From Nitrospirota bacterium (lineage in GTDB: Bacteria; Nitrospirota; Thermodesulfovibrionia; UBA6902; DSMQ01), in the NCBI GenBank assembly GCA_016212185.1, contig JACRGX010000038.1, positions 1 through 39,346 of the forward strand: a stretch of 39,346 nucleotides of DNA, read 5' to 3'. This document shows, one piece after another, positions 32,010 to 37,522 of this stretch; the stretch's first letter is position 1, and the number at the start of each line of letters is the position of its first letter. The notes beneath the pieces were generated by a model. That model was given only the letters and a program-made list of their open reading frames with translations, made no database searches and was not told where the DNA came from. The position numbers and the translations under genes were made by a program.

Positions 32010-32114
32010 AACTCCTGCAATGAAAATGACAGCCAATGTCATCAGATTTAGTTCTCTCCTTAATGTAAAAAATACCTTGATAGAAGGCGCCCAGCGTTGT
32101 ATTATCTATAAAAA

Positions 32115-32186
32115 TTCCCCCTTAGAAAAGGGGGCGGAGGGGGTTGTTATATTCCCCCTTAACAAAGGGGGAAACAGGGGGTTGTT
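32115..32186. repeat. CCCCCTT/AAGGGGG palindromic repeat, two units
   Basis: TTCCCCCTTAGAAAAGGGGG followed by GGAGGGGGTTGTTATA, then TTCCCCCTTAACAAAGGGGG and CAGGGGGTTGTTGTAA. Each unit is a hairpin plus a GGGGGTTGTT tail. Related single units lie at 32832-32871 and 33990-34063 at the same place in copies B and C. Confidence 0.8.
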
Positions 32187-32226
32187 GTAAAGATTTCGTC
32201 ATTGACCTGAAAATGCTTTTAACACT

Positions 32227-32259: not shown

Positions 32260-32290
32260 GTTTTCTGATTTTCTAAAAAGAATAAATCCC

Positions 32291-32380
32291 ATGACAACTA
32301 TCTCCGTTAAAAAAATCACTTTCCTTTTCCTTGTCATATTTGCGATAGGCCTGGCGGGAACTGCCTTTGCCCAAACATAG
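32291..32380 (+). pseudogene. Signal peptide fragment, copy A (29 codons)
   Basis: ATG 32291 encodes a basic N-terminus, a hydrophobic core (ITFLFLVIFAIGLAG) and the cleavage site TAFAQ, then Thr and a stop. Nothing of a mature protein remains. It is the export signal of the same family as 32953 and 34212. Whether a tiny peptide is still made is unknown; it most likely is debris of a truncated gene. Confidence 0.7.
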
Positions 32381-32701: not shown

Positions 32702-32952
32702 ATGTCCGATTAAGGTCAGCGGCTTGCTTTAAATTCTTCCATGTAGATTTCAGGCACAGCCGGCATATACCGTAAAATGTGTGAAAATTACCTTGATTGA
32801 AGGCGCCCTGCGTTGTATTATCTATTCAAAAATTCCCCCTTAACAAAGGGGGATTCAGGGGGTTGTTATAAAAAAACCTTGAAATCCGTCATTCCCCGAT
32901 TTAATCGGGGAATCCAGTCCTTTCCAATATTATATAATGTAAAATAAATCCC
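32702..32952. other. Intergenic interval leading into copy B
   Basis: No gene seen. The first 70 bases show nothing recognisable; the rest is the 5' part of leader copy B with one CCCCCTT/AAGGGGG unit, one single REP hairpin and a TATATAATGTAAAAT promoter-like stretch ending 7 nt before ATG 32953. Confidence 0.6.
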
Positions 32953-33050
32953 ATGACCGCCATTCCCGCTAAAAAAATCACTTTCCTTTTCCTTGTCATG
33001 TTTGCGATAGGACTTGCGGGAACTGCCTTTGCCCAGTCAGAGGATGAGGT
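32772..33050. repeat. Leader/signal-peptide module, copy B
   Basis: Shares with copies A and C the block TACCTTGAT.GAAGGCGCCC and GCGTTGTATTATCTAT, a palindromic CCCCCTT unit (32832-32871), a REP hairpin (32888-32917), AAATAAATCCC-ATG and the signal peptide up to TCAGAGGATGAG. It lacks the HEPN-derived left end of A and C. Confidence 0.85.
32888..32917. repeat. Single REP hairpin in copy B
   Basis: GTCATTCCCCGATTTAATCG and then GGGAATCCAG: a stem of about nine pairs. It occupies the place that holds a different REP hairpin in copy A and a paired REP in copy C. Confidence 0.75.
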
Positions 33051-33084
33051 GCTGAAGCACTATCCGCAGAAGTGCTGGATATAA
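32953..33084 (+). pseudogene. Signal peptide fragment, copy B (43 codons)
   Basis: ATG 32953 encodes an export signal nearly identical to copies A and C (ITFLFLVMFAIGLAGTAFAQ), then SEDEVLKHY, after which homology to copy C ends and PQKCWI and a stop follow. In copy C the SEDEALKLY segment runs into a TPR repeat, so copy B is a truncated gene of that family. Confidence 0.75.
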
Positions 33085-33165: not shown

Positions 33166-33495
33166 ATGATAAATAAAGAACTCATTAAAAAAGCTGTTGC
33201 AAAGATATCTGCTCAGTTCAATCCTCAGCGTATTATCCTTTTTGGCTCATATGCGAGGGGCACCGCTGATGATAAAAGTGATATTGACCTTTTAGTGATA
33301 TGTCCTCTAAGGAAAAGGCGACGGACCTTAATGCTTGAAATGGATAGAGTGCTGAAGGGTTTAAAATTGGCAAGGGATATTGTTGTGCTAAGTCCGGGGG
33401 AATTTGAGATTGAAAAAGAAATCTCAGGCACAATAGCCCGTTATGCATGGAAGGAGGGAAAACCTCTCTATGAACATAAACAAAAAAGTAAATGA
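33166..33495 (+). CDS. MNT-type minimal nucleotidyltransferase (antitoxin of a HEPN/MNT pair)
   Basis: A 109-residue protein with the polymerase-beta nucleotidyltransferase signature: ILFGSYARGTADDKSDIDLL, that is G-S-x10-D-x-D at residues about 27-40, and a third strand DIVVLSP. Small MNT proteins of this form pair with HEPN partners. It overlaps the HEPN gene by 26 nt, so they form one operon. By analogy with known pairs it would neutralise the HEPN protein, perhaps by nucleotide transfer; this is an inference. Confidence 0.88.
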   Translation: MINKELIKKAVAKISAQFNPQRIILFGSYARGTADDKSDIDLLVICPLRKRRRTLMLEMDRVLKGLKLARDIVVLSPGEFEIEKEISGTIARYAWKEGKPLYEHKQKSK

Positions 33496-33883
33496 AATTG
33501 CAAGAGAATGGATTGGACATGCCGAAGAAGATTTGCGGCTGGCAAAACATGCATTTAAGCTCTCAAGTTCGTGCCCATATAAACTGGTTGCTTTTCATGC
33601 ACAGCAGTGTGCGGAGAAATATTTAAAGGCTTTTCTGACAATTAAAAATGTGGATTTCCCTTATACGCATAACATATCCCTGTTGCTGGAGTTATGTTCT
33701 TCCTATGCCGACTGGGCAAAAGATTTGCACGAAGCTGAGGATTTAACCCCCTATGCAATTACCGCCCGTTATCCCGGAAAAGATAAAGTAACTAAAAAAG
33801 ACGCCGTTAAAGCTGTAGAGACTGCCAATAAAGTTCGTAAGATAATCAGAAAAGTTTTAAAACAACACAGTATAAAACCATAG
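33470..33883 (+). CDS. HEPN-domain protein (toxin candidate of the MNT pair)
   Basis: 137 residues from ATG 33470, chosen because AAGGAGGG at 33451-33458 precedes it; an in-frame ATG at 33443 would add 9 residues. It is an all-helical HEPN domain of the COG2250 type: WIGHAEEDLRLAKHAF, VAFHAQQCAEKYLKAFL, VDFPYTHNISLLLEL, LTPYAITARYPG. No canonical R-x4-6-H RNase motif stands in its C-terminal half, so whether it is an RNase is unclear. Its last 16 codons are duplicated as a relic at 31959-32009. Confidence 0.85.
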   Translation: MNINKKVNEIAREWIGHAEEDLRLAKHAFKLSSSCPYKLVAFHAQQCAEKYLKAFLTIKNVDFPYTHNISLLLELCSSYADWAKDLHEAEDLTPYAITARYPGKDKVTKKDAVKAVETANKVRKIIRKVLKQHSIKP

Positions 33884-34330
33884 AACTTCTGCAATGGAAA
33901 TAGCAGACAATGTCATCAGATTTAGTTCTCTCCTTAATGTGAAAAATACCTTGATAGCGGGCGCCCAGCGTTGTATTATCTATAAAAATTCCCAACAAAT
34001 TCCCCTCTATAAAGAGGGGTTAGGGGTGTGTTGAAAATACGGGCATAGAGGGGTTGTTATAAAGATTTCGTCATTTATAGGTTTGTCATGCCGGCTTGTC
34101 CGGCATCTTTCTTAAGAAGGATTCCCGACAAGCGGGAATGACAGCCGAAAGGCAAAAGTGTTCCCATGCGGATTCAAGTTATAAACTTAAACCCGCAATA
34201 AAATAAATCCCATGACAACCATCTCTGATAAAAAAATCACTCTCCTTTTCCTTGTCATATTTGCGATAGTCCTTGCGGGAACTGCCTTTGCCCAGTCAGA
34301 GGATGAGGCATTGAAACTTTATCAGGAAGG
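33832..34330. repeat. Leader/signal-peptide module, copy C (longest)
   Basis: Begins within the HEPN gene and runs through the same leader as copy A (GTCATCAGATTTAGTTCTCT, GCGCCCAGCGTTGTATTATC), a CCCCTC/GAGGGG palindromic unit, a full REP pair (34085-34142), AAATAAATCCC-ATG and the signal peptide. The non-coding part 33884-34211 (328 bp) holds no other gene. Confidence 0.85.
34085..34142. repeat. REP/BIME-like paired hairpin in copy C
   Basis: The left hairpin is GTCATGCCGG...CCGGCATC, the right is GATTCCCG...CGGGAATGAC. The left stem has a T-to-G change paired with an A-to-C change relative to other copies. Confidence 0.85.
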
Positions 34331-34451
34331 GCAAGAGGCACAAAAAAACGGCAAGTATCAGGAGGCGCTCGGATATTTTGGAAGGTCATTAAGAATCTTT
34401 TGTGCATTAAACCTTAATTTTGGAATTGAAATGTTTGGGTTCAAGTTGTAA
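34212..34451 (+). pseudogene. Signal peptide plus start of a TPR repeat, copy C (truncated gene)
   Basis: 79 codons. An export signal ends at TAFAQ; the mature part is SEDEALKLYQEGQEAQKNGK and YQEALGYFGRSLRIF, a clear first tetratricopeptide repeat; the frame then shifts into unrelated sequence (CALNLNFGIEMFGFKL) and stops. Full-length relatives would be expected to carry many TPRs. TAAAAT stands 7 nt before the ATG. It is probably the surviving 5' end of a larger secreted TPR protein. Confidence 0.7.
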
Positions 34452-34457: not shown

Positions 34458-34478
34458 GCCACAGAAATGGAGGGGAAA

Positions 34479-35681
34479 ATGCTATTAAAAGTATGCAAAT
34501 ATTTTCTGTTAATTTTTAATTTTTTAATTATTACAGGCTGTGCAACATCTCCATATGGCAAAGATGCAACTGTCGGTTGGTTTCATGGTGGAGACTACAA
34601 AATCCGTGTTATTACAACACCAGAAGGAGCACGTGTCTATGCAGATGGAAATTATGTTTGCATGTCACCATGCTCAGTCATGGCATACACCGCCCAAGTG
34701 CTCTCAATCACAAAACCCATTTCTTCTCCCAAAACTATTCGGATAGAAAAAGAAGGTTACTTAACTCGTGAGATACAACTTAATTCTCGTTGGGATCTGG
34801 AAAAATTTGGGATTCTTCGTTTAACTCTCTCCCAAATGGATCAAAAAATTAATAAATTATCTGATATTTCATCTCAAATCCCTGTCTCCACCCTCTGGCG
34901 TGCACCCCGTATAACAAGAGTGCTGTCAGTGGGCGTAGGAAATTTCAGGGATGCCTCCATCCCGCAGGTTGAAAATGCCGCATCTGATGCCCGGTATTTT
35001 TCATCATTTGCACAGTCAGTAGGCATCCCGCAGGAAAATATCACATCCCTTTCCAATGAACAGGCAACACGCAGTGATATTACAGACGCAATTCTCAAAT
35101 TAAAGATGGCGACTACAGAATCCTCTGAAACGGCCATTCTCTATTTTTCAGGTCATGGAGCGCCTGTAGTCAAAGACGGCAATGTCATAGATGCCGCACT
35201 TGTCCCCTATGATGCCAGAGAAAGCAGTCTTGAATTTACAGGCATAAGACTGTCCACCCTGAAAGAAATGCTCTCCAATACCAGAGGCAACTGGATTGTG
35301 ATTCTTGATGCCTGTTTTACCGGCAAAGAAGGCAGAAGCCTTATGGCAAAGAACATTAAAGGAATAACAATAGTGCCAAAGGGATTTAAGGCTGTTCAGG
35401 ATACAGGCGAGAATTCCTGGTGGGTGACAGCCACAAGCAGCGACAACTTTGCCAATGACTTTTCAAAGGAAAAACGTGGGCTTTTTACCTACTATTTTGT
35501 CAAGGCGCTTGCCGGCGAAAAAGGAGTTGATGCAAACAAAGACGGTCTTATCAGCCTGAAAGAGGCATTTGACTGGACAAGGGCAGAGGTACGGGATGTC
35601 TCTGCAAAGTCACTCGGCCGCCCGCAGATTCCTGAACTGATTGGCGAGGGCGATGTAATACTTACCATGCCAAAACAATGA
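34479..35681 (+). CDS. Lipoprotein with PEGA and caspase-like (peptidase C14) domains
   Basis: 400 residues from ATG 34479, set by GGAGGGG at 34469-34475; an in-frame ATG at 34467 is part of that site. Residues 1-20 are a lipoprotein signal with lipobox IITGC21; the +2 residue is Ala, so outer-membrane sorting is expected. Residues about 40-105 are a PEGA domain (RVITTPEGARVYADGNYVCM, IRIEKEGYLTREI). Residues about 143-390 are a caspase fold: RVLSVGVGNFRDASIPQVEN, catalytic H226 in YFSGHGAP, catalytic C279 in ILDACFTG, and GLFTYYFVKALAGEKGVD. Both catalytic residues are intact, so protease activity is plausible. It precedes a DUF4384-type gene by 66 nt. Substrate unknown. The PEGA half is visibly more AT-rich than the caspase half. 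Confidence 0.88.
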   Translation: MLLKVCKYFLLIFNFLIITGCATSPYGKDATVGWFHGGDYKIRVITTPEGARVYADGNYVCMSPCSVMAYTAQVLSITKPISSPKTIRIEKEGYLTREIQLNSRWDLEKFGILRLTLSQMDQKINKLSDISSQIPVSTLWRAPRITRVLSVGVGNFRDASIPQVENAASDARYFSSFAQSVGIPQENITSLSNEQATRSDITDAILKLKMATTESSETAILYFSGHGAPVVKDGNVIDAALVPYDARESSLEFTGIRLSTLKEMLSNTRGNWIVILDACFTGKEGRSLMAKNIKGITIVPKGFKAVQDTGENSWWVTATSSDNFANDFSKEKRGLFTYYFVKALAGEKGVDANKDGLISLKEAFDWTRAEVRDVSAKSLGRPQIPELIGEGDVILTMPKQ

Positions 35682-35747
35682 AGATATCTTGCCGAATTTT
35701 GATTTTTGCTTTTTCTCTTTTTACGAATATCTGATTAAGGAGGAATC

Positions 35748-36608
35748 ATGAAAAAAGTATTTCTCACATTATTTTTGACCCTGGTTTTAACTGCAAATCT
35801 CTACGCCGCGCAGTCCACTATCACTGAATCCGAGGGCTATTCATGCATGGGCGAAGACAAGTCAAGGAAGCAAACCGAGCAGACAGCAATGGCTGATGCA
35901 AAGAGGAATGCAGTTGAATATGCCGCAACTTATATCAAGAGCGAAACGCAGGTCAAAGATTTTGAGCTTCAGAAGGATTTGATTGAAGCTTATTTAAGGG
36001 CGTCTGTGAAGGTAATTCAGGAGATTAAAAAGGAATGGTACAAAGACGCTTCTGCAGGAGACTGTTTTAAAATTAGAATTAAGGCAGAGGTTATTCCTGA
36101 TGAAAAGGCAATGGAAAAGGTTGCCAAAAATATACAATCTGACGATGACCCGTCTGCGCCGTTAAGTATTCAGCTTTGGACAGACAAAAAGGAATATAAA
36201 AAAGGTGAGATGGTAAAGGTCTATGTCAAAGGCAATAAGCCTTTTTATGCACGCGTTTTATACAAAGACGCAGGCGGTGAATTACTGCAATTGCTTCCAA
36301 ATCCATACAGAAAGGATAATTATTTTAACGGCGGGGTAATTTATGAAATCCCTTCGGGAAATGACAAGTTTGACCTTGAGGTAAGCTCGCCGTTCGGTGA
36401 GGAAAATGTGGTAATCTATGCAAGCACATCCCCTTTGGGTGAGCTAAATCTCAAATCAGAGGGCGGGGTTTATCAGATAAAGACAAAGGCATCGGATGTG
36501 GGAGACAAGACAAGGGGGATTACATTTAAAGAAAAGACAGGGGATAAAGCAACACAGGCATCTGAGTTTTTTGAGGAAAAGGCGGTTGTGAGAACAGGGC
36601 AGAGATAA
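35748..36608 (+). CDS. Exported protein with LPP20-like and DUF4384 domains
   Basis: 286 residues with a signal peptide (cleavage near LYAAQ, about residue 21). Residues about 35-130 (MADAKRNAVEYAATYIKSET, then VIQEIKKEWYKDASAGDCFK) look like the LPP20/LPP-type fold found in outer-membrane associated proteins. Residues about 140-235 match DUF4384: LSIQLWTDKKEYKKGEMVKV, YARVLYKDAGGELLQLLPNP, NYFNGGVIYEIP. AAGGAGG precedes the ATG. DUF4384 is known to accompany caspase-domain proteins, fused or adjacent, so the two genes probably form one envelope-located system; this link is family knowledge plus adjacency, not shown by the sequence itself. Confidence 0.8.
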   Translation: MKKVFLTLFLTLVLTANLYAAQSTITESEGYSCMGEDKSRKQTEQTAMADAKRNAVEYAATYIKSETQVKDFELQKDLIEAYLRASVKVIQEIKKEWYKDASAGDCFKIRIKAEVIPDEKAMEKVAKNIQSDDDPSAPLSIQLWTDKKEYKKGEMVKVYVKGNKPFYARVLYKDAGGELLQLLPNPYRKDNYFNGGVIYEIPSGNDKFDLEVSSPFGEENVVIYASTSPLGELNLKSEGGVYQIKTKASDVGDKTRGITFKEKTGDKATQASEFFEEKAVVRTGQR

Positions 36609-36658: not shown

Positions 36659-37096
36659 ATGCAGGCGGCAAAAAAATACATTGTTAATAAAGAAACGCGC
36701 TATGAACTCATTGAAAGGATTGCCGGCTATTTCAGGAAGGATGAAGAGGTTTCTTTTGCGTATATCTACGGCTCATTTAACGAATCAGGAGAGTTTAACG
36801 ATATAGATGTCGCTGTCTATCTTGAAGAGTCATTTGCCGTAAAAGAAAATACCATTGACTGTCAGCTTGAGCTTGGGGTTAATCTTGAGAGGGAATTAAA
36901 AGGCTACACCGTTGACTGCAGGGTACTTAACACCGCCCCTCTTTCGTTTCGTTTTTCAGTAATTACCTCAGGGGACCTCATCTACTCAAAAGATGAAGCC
37001 AAAAGGGTTTCTTTTGAGGTAATGACGAGGAATCTCTACTTTGACTTTAAACCCCATGCTGATTTCTACTATCAAAAGATTGCGTTGGGAAGATAG
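36659..37096 (+). CDS. mntA: MntA-type nucleotidyltransferase antitoxin
   Basis: A 145-residue protein with the nucleotidyltransferase signature FAYIYGSFNESGEFNDIDVA (G-S...D-x-D; 8 residues between, near residues 37-49) and a third acidic strand in YTVDCRVLN. Partner of the HepT-like protein encoded directly after it (no gap). In the characterised Shewanella system MntA adds AMP residues to a tyrosine of HepT and so silences the RNase; the same is proposed here. It is clearly different in sequence and length from the MNT gene at 33166. Confidence 0.87.
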   Translation: MQAAKKYIVNKETRYELIERIAGYFRKDEEVSFAYIYGSFNESGEFNDIDVAVYLEESFAVKENTIDCQLELGVNLERELKGYTVDCRVLNTAPLSFRFSVITSGDLIYSKDEAKRVSFEVMTRNLYFDFKPHADFYYQKIALGR

Positions 37097-37522
37097 ATGA
37101 CACCGATTAATCCTGAAGTTGTAACGAGGCTCCTTACTGAAATGGAGCAGGCTGTTGGAAAGTTGAATGTCTTATCCTCGCTTTCACAGGATGAATTTCT
37201 TTCTGACTCAAAATATTATGACTCCGCAAAATATAACTTGATAGTAGCTGTTGAATCTCTTATTGACCTCTGCAATCACATCATCGCACAGAAAAGGCTT
37301 GGGAAACCGGAGGACTATGGGGATATCCTCAGGATCGCAGGGAAAGAGCTTACCCTTAATGCTGATTTTATAAAAAGTCTTGAGAAGATGGCAAAATTCA
37401 GAAATCTTATTGTTCACTTATACTGGAAAACTGATAATGCAGAGGTTTATAACATATTGAAGAACAACCTTGGTGACTTTGACAAAATAAAAAAGTCATT
37501 GCAAGAATACTTAACCCGCTAA
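37097..37522 (+). CDS. hepT: HepT-type HEPN ribonuclease toxin
   Basis: A 141-residue all-helical DUF86/HepT-like protein. The catalytic motif R102-x4-H107-x-Y109 (FRNLIVHLYW) is complete, including the tyrosine that MntA modifies in the known type VII system. VAVESLIDLCNHIIAQKRLG and YGDILRIAGKEL match the conserved dimer helices. It starts at the base after the mntA stop codon. Predicted to cleave RNA (tRNA in the studied case) unless modified by MntA. Confidence 0.88.
   Translation: MTPINPEVVTRLLTEMEQAVGKLNVLSSLSQDEFLSDSKYYDSAKYNLIVAVESLIDLCNHIIAQKRLGKPEDYGDILRIAGKELTLNADFIKSLEKMAKFRNLIVHLYWKTDNAEVYNILKNNLGDFDKIKKSLQEYLTR

Follow-up and report, generated by a model that had tools for sequence, protein, structure and literature searches.

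To our knowledge, bacterial caspase homologues are mostly without known partners and substrates, and DUF4384, a widespread domain, is without a known function. The closest described systems join the two in a single polypeptide. Published accounts describe C14-DUF4384 fusion proteins, which are cyanobacterial orthocaspases (PMC8283722, PMC7475262), and trypsin-p20-DUF4384 fusions, with DUF4384 also a built-in domain of kinases (PMC6426788); in these papers, where they mention DUF4384, the DUF4384 caspases appear as fusions only, and a two-gene operon of the kind reported here does not appear. A further parallel is offered by bacterial gasdermins, whose processing depends on C14, CHAT or trypsin-like proteases encoded next to them (PMC9612521). 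Here we describe a caspase lipoprotein gene and its DUF4384 neighbour (Table 1) in a 39,346-nucleotide stretch of DNA from a Nitrospirota bacterium, which was analysed as a whole and is referred to as the window. Whereas C14-DUF4384 is already known as a fusion from the literature, the separate exported genes and the exchange of the protease appear to be new, and the chief new result is a natural protease swap beside a retained DUF4384 gene.

Table 1. Features of the caspase-DUF4384 locus and its surroundings (positions in the window)
Feature	Position	Strand	Description	Basis
Third relic of TPR-CHAT head	32279..32377	+	aa 6-39; precedes DUF5647 gene	
Second relic of TPR-CHAT head	32941..33069	+	aa 6-49; precedes MNT-HEPN	
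MNT-HEPN pair	33166..33883	+	Also in sister genome; context, outside module	Pfam
Relic 5' end of TPR-CHAT gene	34197..34397	+	Sister aa 5-72	tblastn E 7e-21, blastn E 1e-41
Caspase lipoprotein	34479..35681	+	400 aa; signal peptide, lipobox (C21), PEGA, Peptidase_C14	ORF, Pfam, alignment, fold
PEGA domain of caspase lipoprotein	34596-34778	+		Pfam
Peptidase_C14 domain of caspase lipoprotein	34923-35639	+		Pfam
Caspase catalytic residues	H226 = 35154-35156; C279 = 35313-35315	+		Alignment
Intergenic gap caspase/DUF4384	35682..35747	+	66 bp; no terminator-like site	
Exported DUF4384 protein	35748..36608	+	286 aa; signal peptide, LPP20-like N-domain, DUF4384	Pfam, alignments, fold
DUF4384 domain	36192-36434	+		Pfam
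MNT (Polbeta)-HepT pair	36659..37522	+	Missing from sister locus; context, outside module	Pfam

The ATG at 34479 is the right start of the caspase gene, with GGAGGGG 4 nt ahead of it; a further in-frame ATG lies upstream at 34467. The N-terminus of the protein (MLLKVCKYFLLIFNFLIITGC) carries the lipobox ITGC with C21 and an Ala at +2, which agrees with the lipoprotein signal read by the earlier note and predicts export and lipid anchoring. Both domains scored above their Pfam cut-offs (PEGA, 31.2 bits versus 20.8; Peptidase_C14, 60.4 bits versus 21.4). The catalytic residues H226 and C279, also named in that note, were invariant in 64 aligned C14 domains, as was D170, while D277 was conserved in at least 90% of them. 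In the AlphaFold2 model the C14 part had pLDDT values mostly above 90, the signal and PEGA part being poor, and the fold of the C14 model matched those of MALT1 (3v4o, E 8e-12) and Geobacter GSU0716 (3bij). The distorted dyad that would have spoken against the earlier proposal was not evident at the level of the fold. The window caspase is thus of the Peptidase C14, or orthocaspase, type, with a caspase fold and a His-Cys dyad; against the EACC1-associated caspase profile NF047832 it scored 75.1 bits, which is under the cut-off of 140.

The G+C content of the gene is 36% in the PEGA part and 47% in the C14 part, and such a difference possibly reflects a recent fusion of two sources, which would make the caspase a chimeric newcomer. 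A second PEGA-C14 protein was not found in 296 genomes of the phylum, where matches fell mainly over the C14 part, and 14 further genomes yielded the C14 domain only. There was no close second copy in the window's own genome and no match to the caspase in phages; a sequence search of solved structures gave one weak match, and a literature search for PEGA plus caspase returned nothing relevant.

No terminator-like site was found in the 66-bp gap that separates the caspase from the downstream gene. As the earlier note had it, the product of this second gene has a signal peptide and a DUF4384 domain (PF14326; 87.0 bits versus a cut-off of 27). The LPP20-like N-domain, which the note also listed and which we place at approximately residues 21-130, had support from the fold only: the match to 5ok8 had a Foldseek probability of 0.99 and a TMt of 0.43, with no Pfam LPP20 match. 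The model had a mean pLDDT of 86.7, and the DUF4384 beta-sandwich resembled a macroglobulin or Ig-like domain, these matches being hints at the fold level with low query TM-scores. The conservation of C33 (60/62 sequences) and C106 (61/62) would fit a periplasmic disulfide. A plasmid search for DUF4384 retrieved only a distant Rhizobium DUF4384.

We next turn to how constant the pairing is. A bacterial-genome scan with an alignment of the window's DUF4384 subfamily yielded 80 loci, mostly from Nitrospirota and deltaproteobacterial groups. The set for the adjacency count comprised 82 loci, namely the scan loci and nearby genomes, classed by profiles built here. In 35 of these 82 loci, which are not fully independent and come nearly all from different species, a gene for a clan CD protease (C14 or CHAT) lay directly beside DUF4384, and in 42 it lay within three genes; the background was 11 C14/CHAT genes among 417 (2.6%) at four or more places from DUF4384, and the enrichment peaked at positions -1 and +1. 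By Pfam, C14 and CHAT accounted for 12/60 and 5/60 of the same-strand upstream neighbours and for 9/48 and 3/48 of the downstream ones. When 61 related Nitrospirota genomes were searched separately for DUF4384, C14 and CHAT, 12 of the 29 DUF4384 genes were at most 1.5 kb from a C14/CHAT gene (0.115 expected for random placement) and 20 at most 5 kb (0.32 expected). Most relatives in the comparison are draft genomes. Reciprocally, DUF4384 was present in 16 of 39 loci fetched solely by similarity to the window caspase, and in nine of these 16 it started -4 to +33 bp from the stop of the upstream caspase; several caspases of this set were short lipoproteins carrying ankyrin or another part at the N-terminus. 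The usual partner in the 39 loci was a second DUF4384 subfamily, paired with lipoprotein caspases, which is also present, without a protease, on contig C52 of the window's genome. The adjacency that the earlier note had proposed to survey is therefore conserved across genomes. Over half of the loci of the window-type subfamily had no adjacent protease, some of them lying among housekeeping genes, so DUF4384 may also act alone or with a protease encoded elsewhere. At L007:1120-2946, a second C14-DUF4384 pair within one genome includes a DUF4384 protein without a signal peptide and most of its N-domain, which is apparently decaying.

The comparison with a sister genome of the same genus (G001) was the most informative. 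At the corresponding locus (L072) a TPR-CHAT protease of 763 aa, exported according to its signal peptide, stands where the window has the caspase, while the DUF4384 protein is 92-93% identical to that of the window and the outer flanks, MNT-HEPN upstream and a SpoU methyltransferase downstream, are common to both. The homology between window and sister ends at 34391-34397 and resumes at 35739, at the ribosome-binding site of DUF4384. Directly upstream of the caspase, the window retains the 5' end of that TPR-CHAT gene, its first 72 codons, as a relic that gives rise to a 79-aa ORF (34212-34451). The earlier note described the window genes correctly and overlooked this relic together with two further heads. 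The genome comparison thus indicates that the PEGA-C14 lipoprotein replaced the exported TPR-CHAT protease in place in the window's species. TPR-CHAT also adjoins DUF4384 in a less closely related family of the same class (G049, L090), so that TPR-CHAT probably represents the ancestral state and PEGA-C14 the later arrival. In the DUF4384 tree, two other closely related loci with unlike proteases, WD40-C14 (L119) and TPR-CHAT (L126), form a second such pair, on a branch with a support of 100. From these comparisons we conclude that the constant element of the pairing is DUF4384 and not the caspase.

The three TPR-CHAT heads of the window lost their bodies at different codons and are followed by DUF5647, MNT-HEPN and the caspase, respectively, which looks like a tandem protease array in decay; three heads likewise occur in the sister genome. 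Dispersed short repeats of the ATTCCCCCTTAACAAAGGGGGA type occur at 32113-32191 and 32832-32872 and on several contigs of the genome. The TPR-CHAT frame of the sister (L072:3982-6273) stops just short of where the CHAT profile ends, and the profile search reads through the stop; the frame may be slightly truncated or contain a draft error. Misassembly was considered as a source of the swap and rejected: the junction at ~34391 lies past the repeated part of the heads, a second close caspase copy is absent from the genome, and the sole remaining CHAT gene (contig C74) is no ortholog (29% over 152 aa). A misjoined MAG contig at the junction may be given a small remaining probability.

The proteases linked to DUF4384 vary in their catalytic family (C14 or CHAT) as well as in their N-terminal module (PEGA, WD40, TPR or ankyrin). 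Export of the caspase, held to be unusual in the earlier note, was common in this set: a simple rule for signal peptides and lipoboxes, used in place of SignalP, classed 97 of 114 C14 and 13 of 16 CHAT proteins as exported. Moreover, CHAT, DUF4384 and trypsin are joined in one protein in two genomes (L096:6540-9587, L095:5942-8980), and such fusions, like the published C14-DUF4384 ones, support a physical partnership of protease and DUF4384. In sum, the protease is intact and its export is predicted, the adjacency is conserved, and both a swap and fusions occur. The recurrence of the pairing in many bacteria and the persistence of DUF4384 through the swap suggest that the window pair is a so far undescribed envelope proteolytic system and not an isolated oddity.

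We propose that DUF4384 serves as a constant accessory, a sensor or an adaptor, of interchangeable envelope caspase-like proteases, a reading to which we give an even chance. The caspase-fold cysteine protease would be exported and, once lipidated, stay anchored at the membrane, and the module at its N-terminus, which is PEGA in the window and WD40, ankyrin or TPR in related proteins, would recognise a structure or a partner. The DUF4384 protein would be its dedicated periplasmic accessory subunit, binding the protease physically, and its LPP20-like domain and Ig- or macroglobulin-like beta-sandwich would sense a ligand or present substrates. Such an accessory would tolerate exchange of the protease, as in the replacement of TPR-CHAT by PEGA-C14. 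The retention of the acidic pocket residues D170 and D277 points to Arg or Lys as the probable residues after which the protease cuts. The output of the module may lie in envelope signalling or quality control, the former in keeping with the FecR and CHASE2-cyclase genes of several related loci.

Alternatively, DUF4384 could be the substrate: C14 or CHAT would cut it, perhaps after Arg256, which directly precedes a disordered loop, and the product of cleavage would act on the envelope. As in bacterial gasdermin operons (PMC9612521), the partner is constant and the proteases are interchangeable, the pocket aspartates of C14 are conserved, and Arg256 is invariant (62/62) and followed by a loop with pLDDT below 50. 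However, loci with no protease beside DUF4384 keep Arg256 just as strictly (24/24), which ruled it out as a protease-specific cleavage site, and the second DUF4384 subfamily, though paired with lipoprotein caspases, lacks the loop in the alignment. No gasdermin-like fold was among the matches listed for the DUF4384 protein. DUF4384 is also built into proteases and, according to PMC6426788, kinases, which suits an accessory better; on the same ground a sensor fits better than the target that the earlier note had considered. We therefore regard the substrate reading as unlikely. In a broader version, DUF4384 proteins would be zymogen-like periplasmic executioners, activated through cleavage by any exported clan CD protease, and would form an envelope counterpart of gasdermin systems spread over Nitrospirota and deltaproteobacterial groups; this we consider distinctly improbable.

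It is also conceivable, if rather doubtful, that the two genes merely share an envelope-stress or surface-remodelling operon, their products working in one pathway without contact. FecR was found at position -1 of DUF4384 in 7/79 loci and a CHASE2-cyclase at +1 in 4/79, and the presence of exported FecR and CHASE2-cyclase in the modules of several relatives points to envelope signalling; many DUF4384 genes, furthermore, stand alone. Operon-like arrangements of FecR, DUF4384 and WD40-C14 (or TPR-CHAT), with CHASE2-cyclase, were seen in four loci (L076, L119, L116, L126). Nevertheless, a pathway without contact would sit poorly with one-polypeptide fusions, both the CHAT-DUF4384-trypsin proteins and those described in PMC8283722, and with a protease enrichment that peaks exactly at the adjacent positions.

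The earlier note had placed the pair between two toxin-antitoxin modules and suggested that it may be a periplasmic proteolytic or a self-destruction device. Both modules were confirmed by Pfam, but a meaning of the bracket found no support, as the right-hand MNT-HepT is missing from the sister locus while DUF4384 and the outer flanks are retained there. The pair has no gene for a gasdermin, a lysin or a pore protein next to it, and the PADLOC search returned a single-protein caspase model and weak MNT matches, with no complete known anti-phage system. A device for self-destruction or phage defence, set in an island rich in toxin-antitoxin genes and favoured by the modules on both sides and the PADLOC caspase match, is thus very improbable, given the loss of the right module in the sister, the lack of a PADLOC match for DUF4384 and of a phage match for the caspase, and related loci that hold envelope genes and not known effectors.

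With the accessory reading preferred, comparative genomics provides a candidate partner for a caspase, DUF4384, both being predicted to reside in the envelope. The swap amounts to a natural experiment in which the class of the protease changes while the DUF4384 partner stays; it makes the question of substrate or adaptor directly testable and gives DUF4384 a concrete working hypothesis.

Among known systems, Helicobacter Lpp20 (5ok8) is like the N-domain of the DUF4384 protein at the fold level, but it stands alone, without DUF4384. Craspase TPR-CHAT of type III-E CRISPR (PMC9729208) has the same domain order as the replaced protease, whereas the sister TPR-CHAT carries a signal peptide, and the stretch read around it showed no CRISPR gene. 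Bacterial gasdermin operons (PMC9612521) are alike in combining one constant partner with interchangeable C14, CHAT or trypsin-like proteases. They differ in that the window has no gasdermin, the partner being the exported DUF4384 protein, and in that both window proteins are predicted to be extracytoplasmic. Closest are the C14-DUF4384 (PMC8283722, PMC7475262) and trypsin-p20-DUF4384 (PMC6426788) fusions, which unite the same two domain families in one polypeptide and include, among the C14-DUF4384 fusions, true orthocaspases with a catalytic HC dyad like that of the window caspase. In contrast to these fusions, the window has two separate exported genes, a caspase with a lipid anchor and PEGA, and a DUF4384 protein with an LPP20-like domain that persists through the exchange of its protease.
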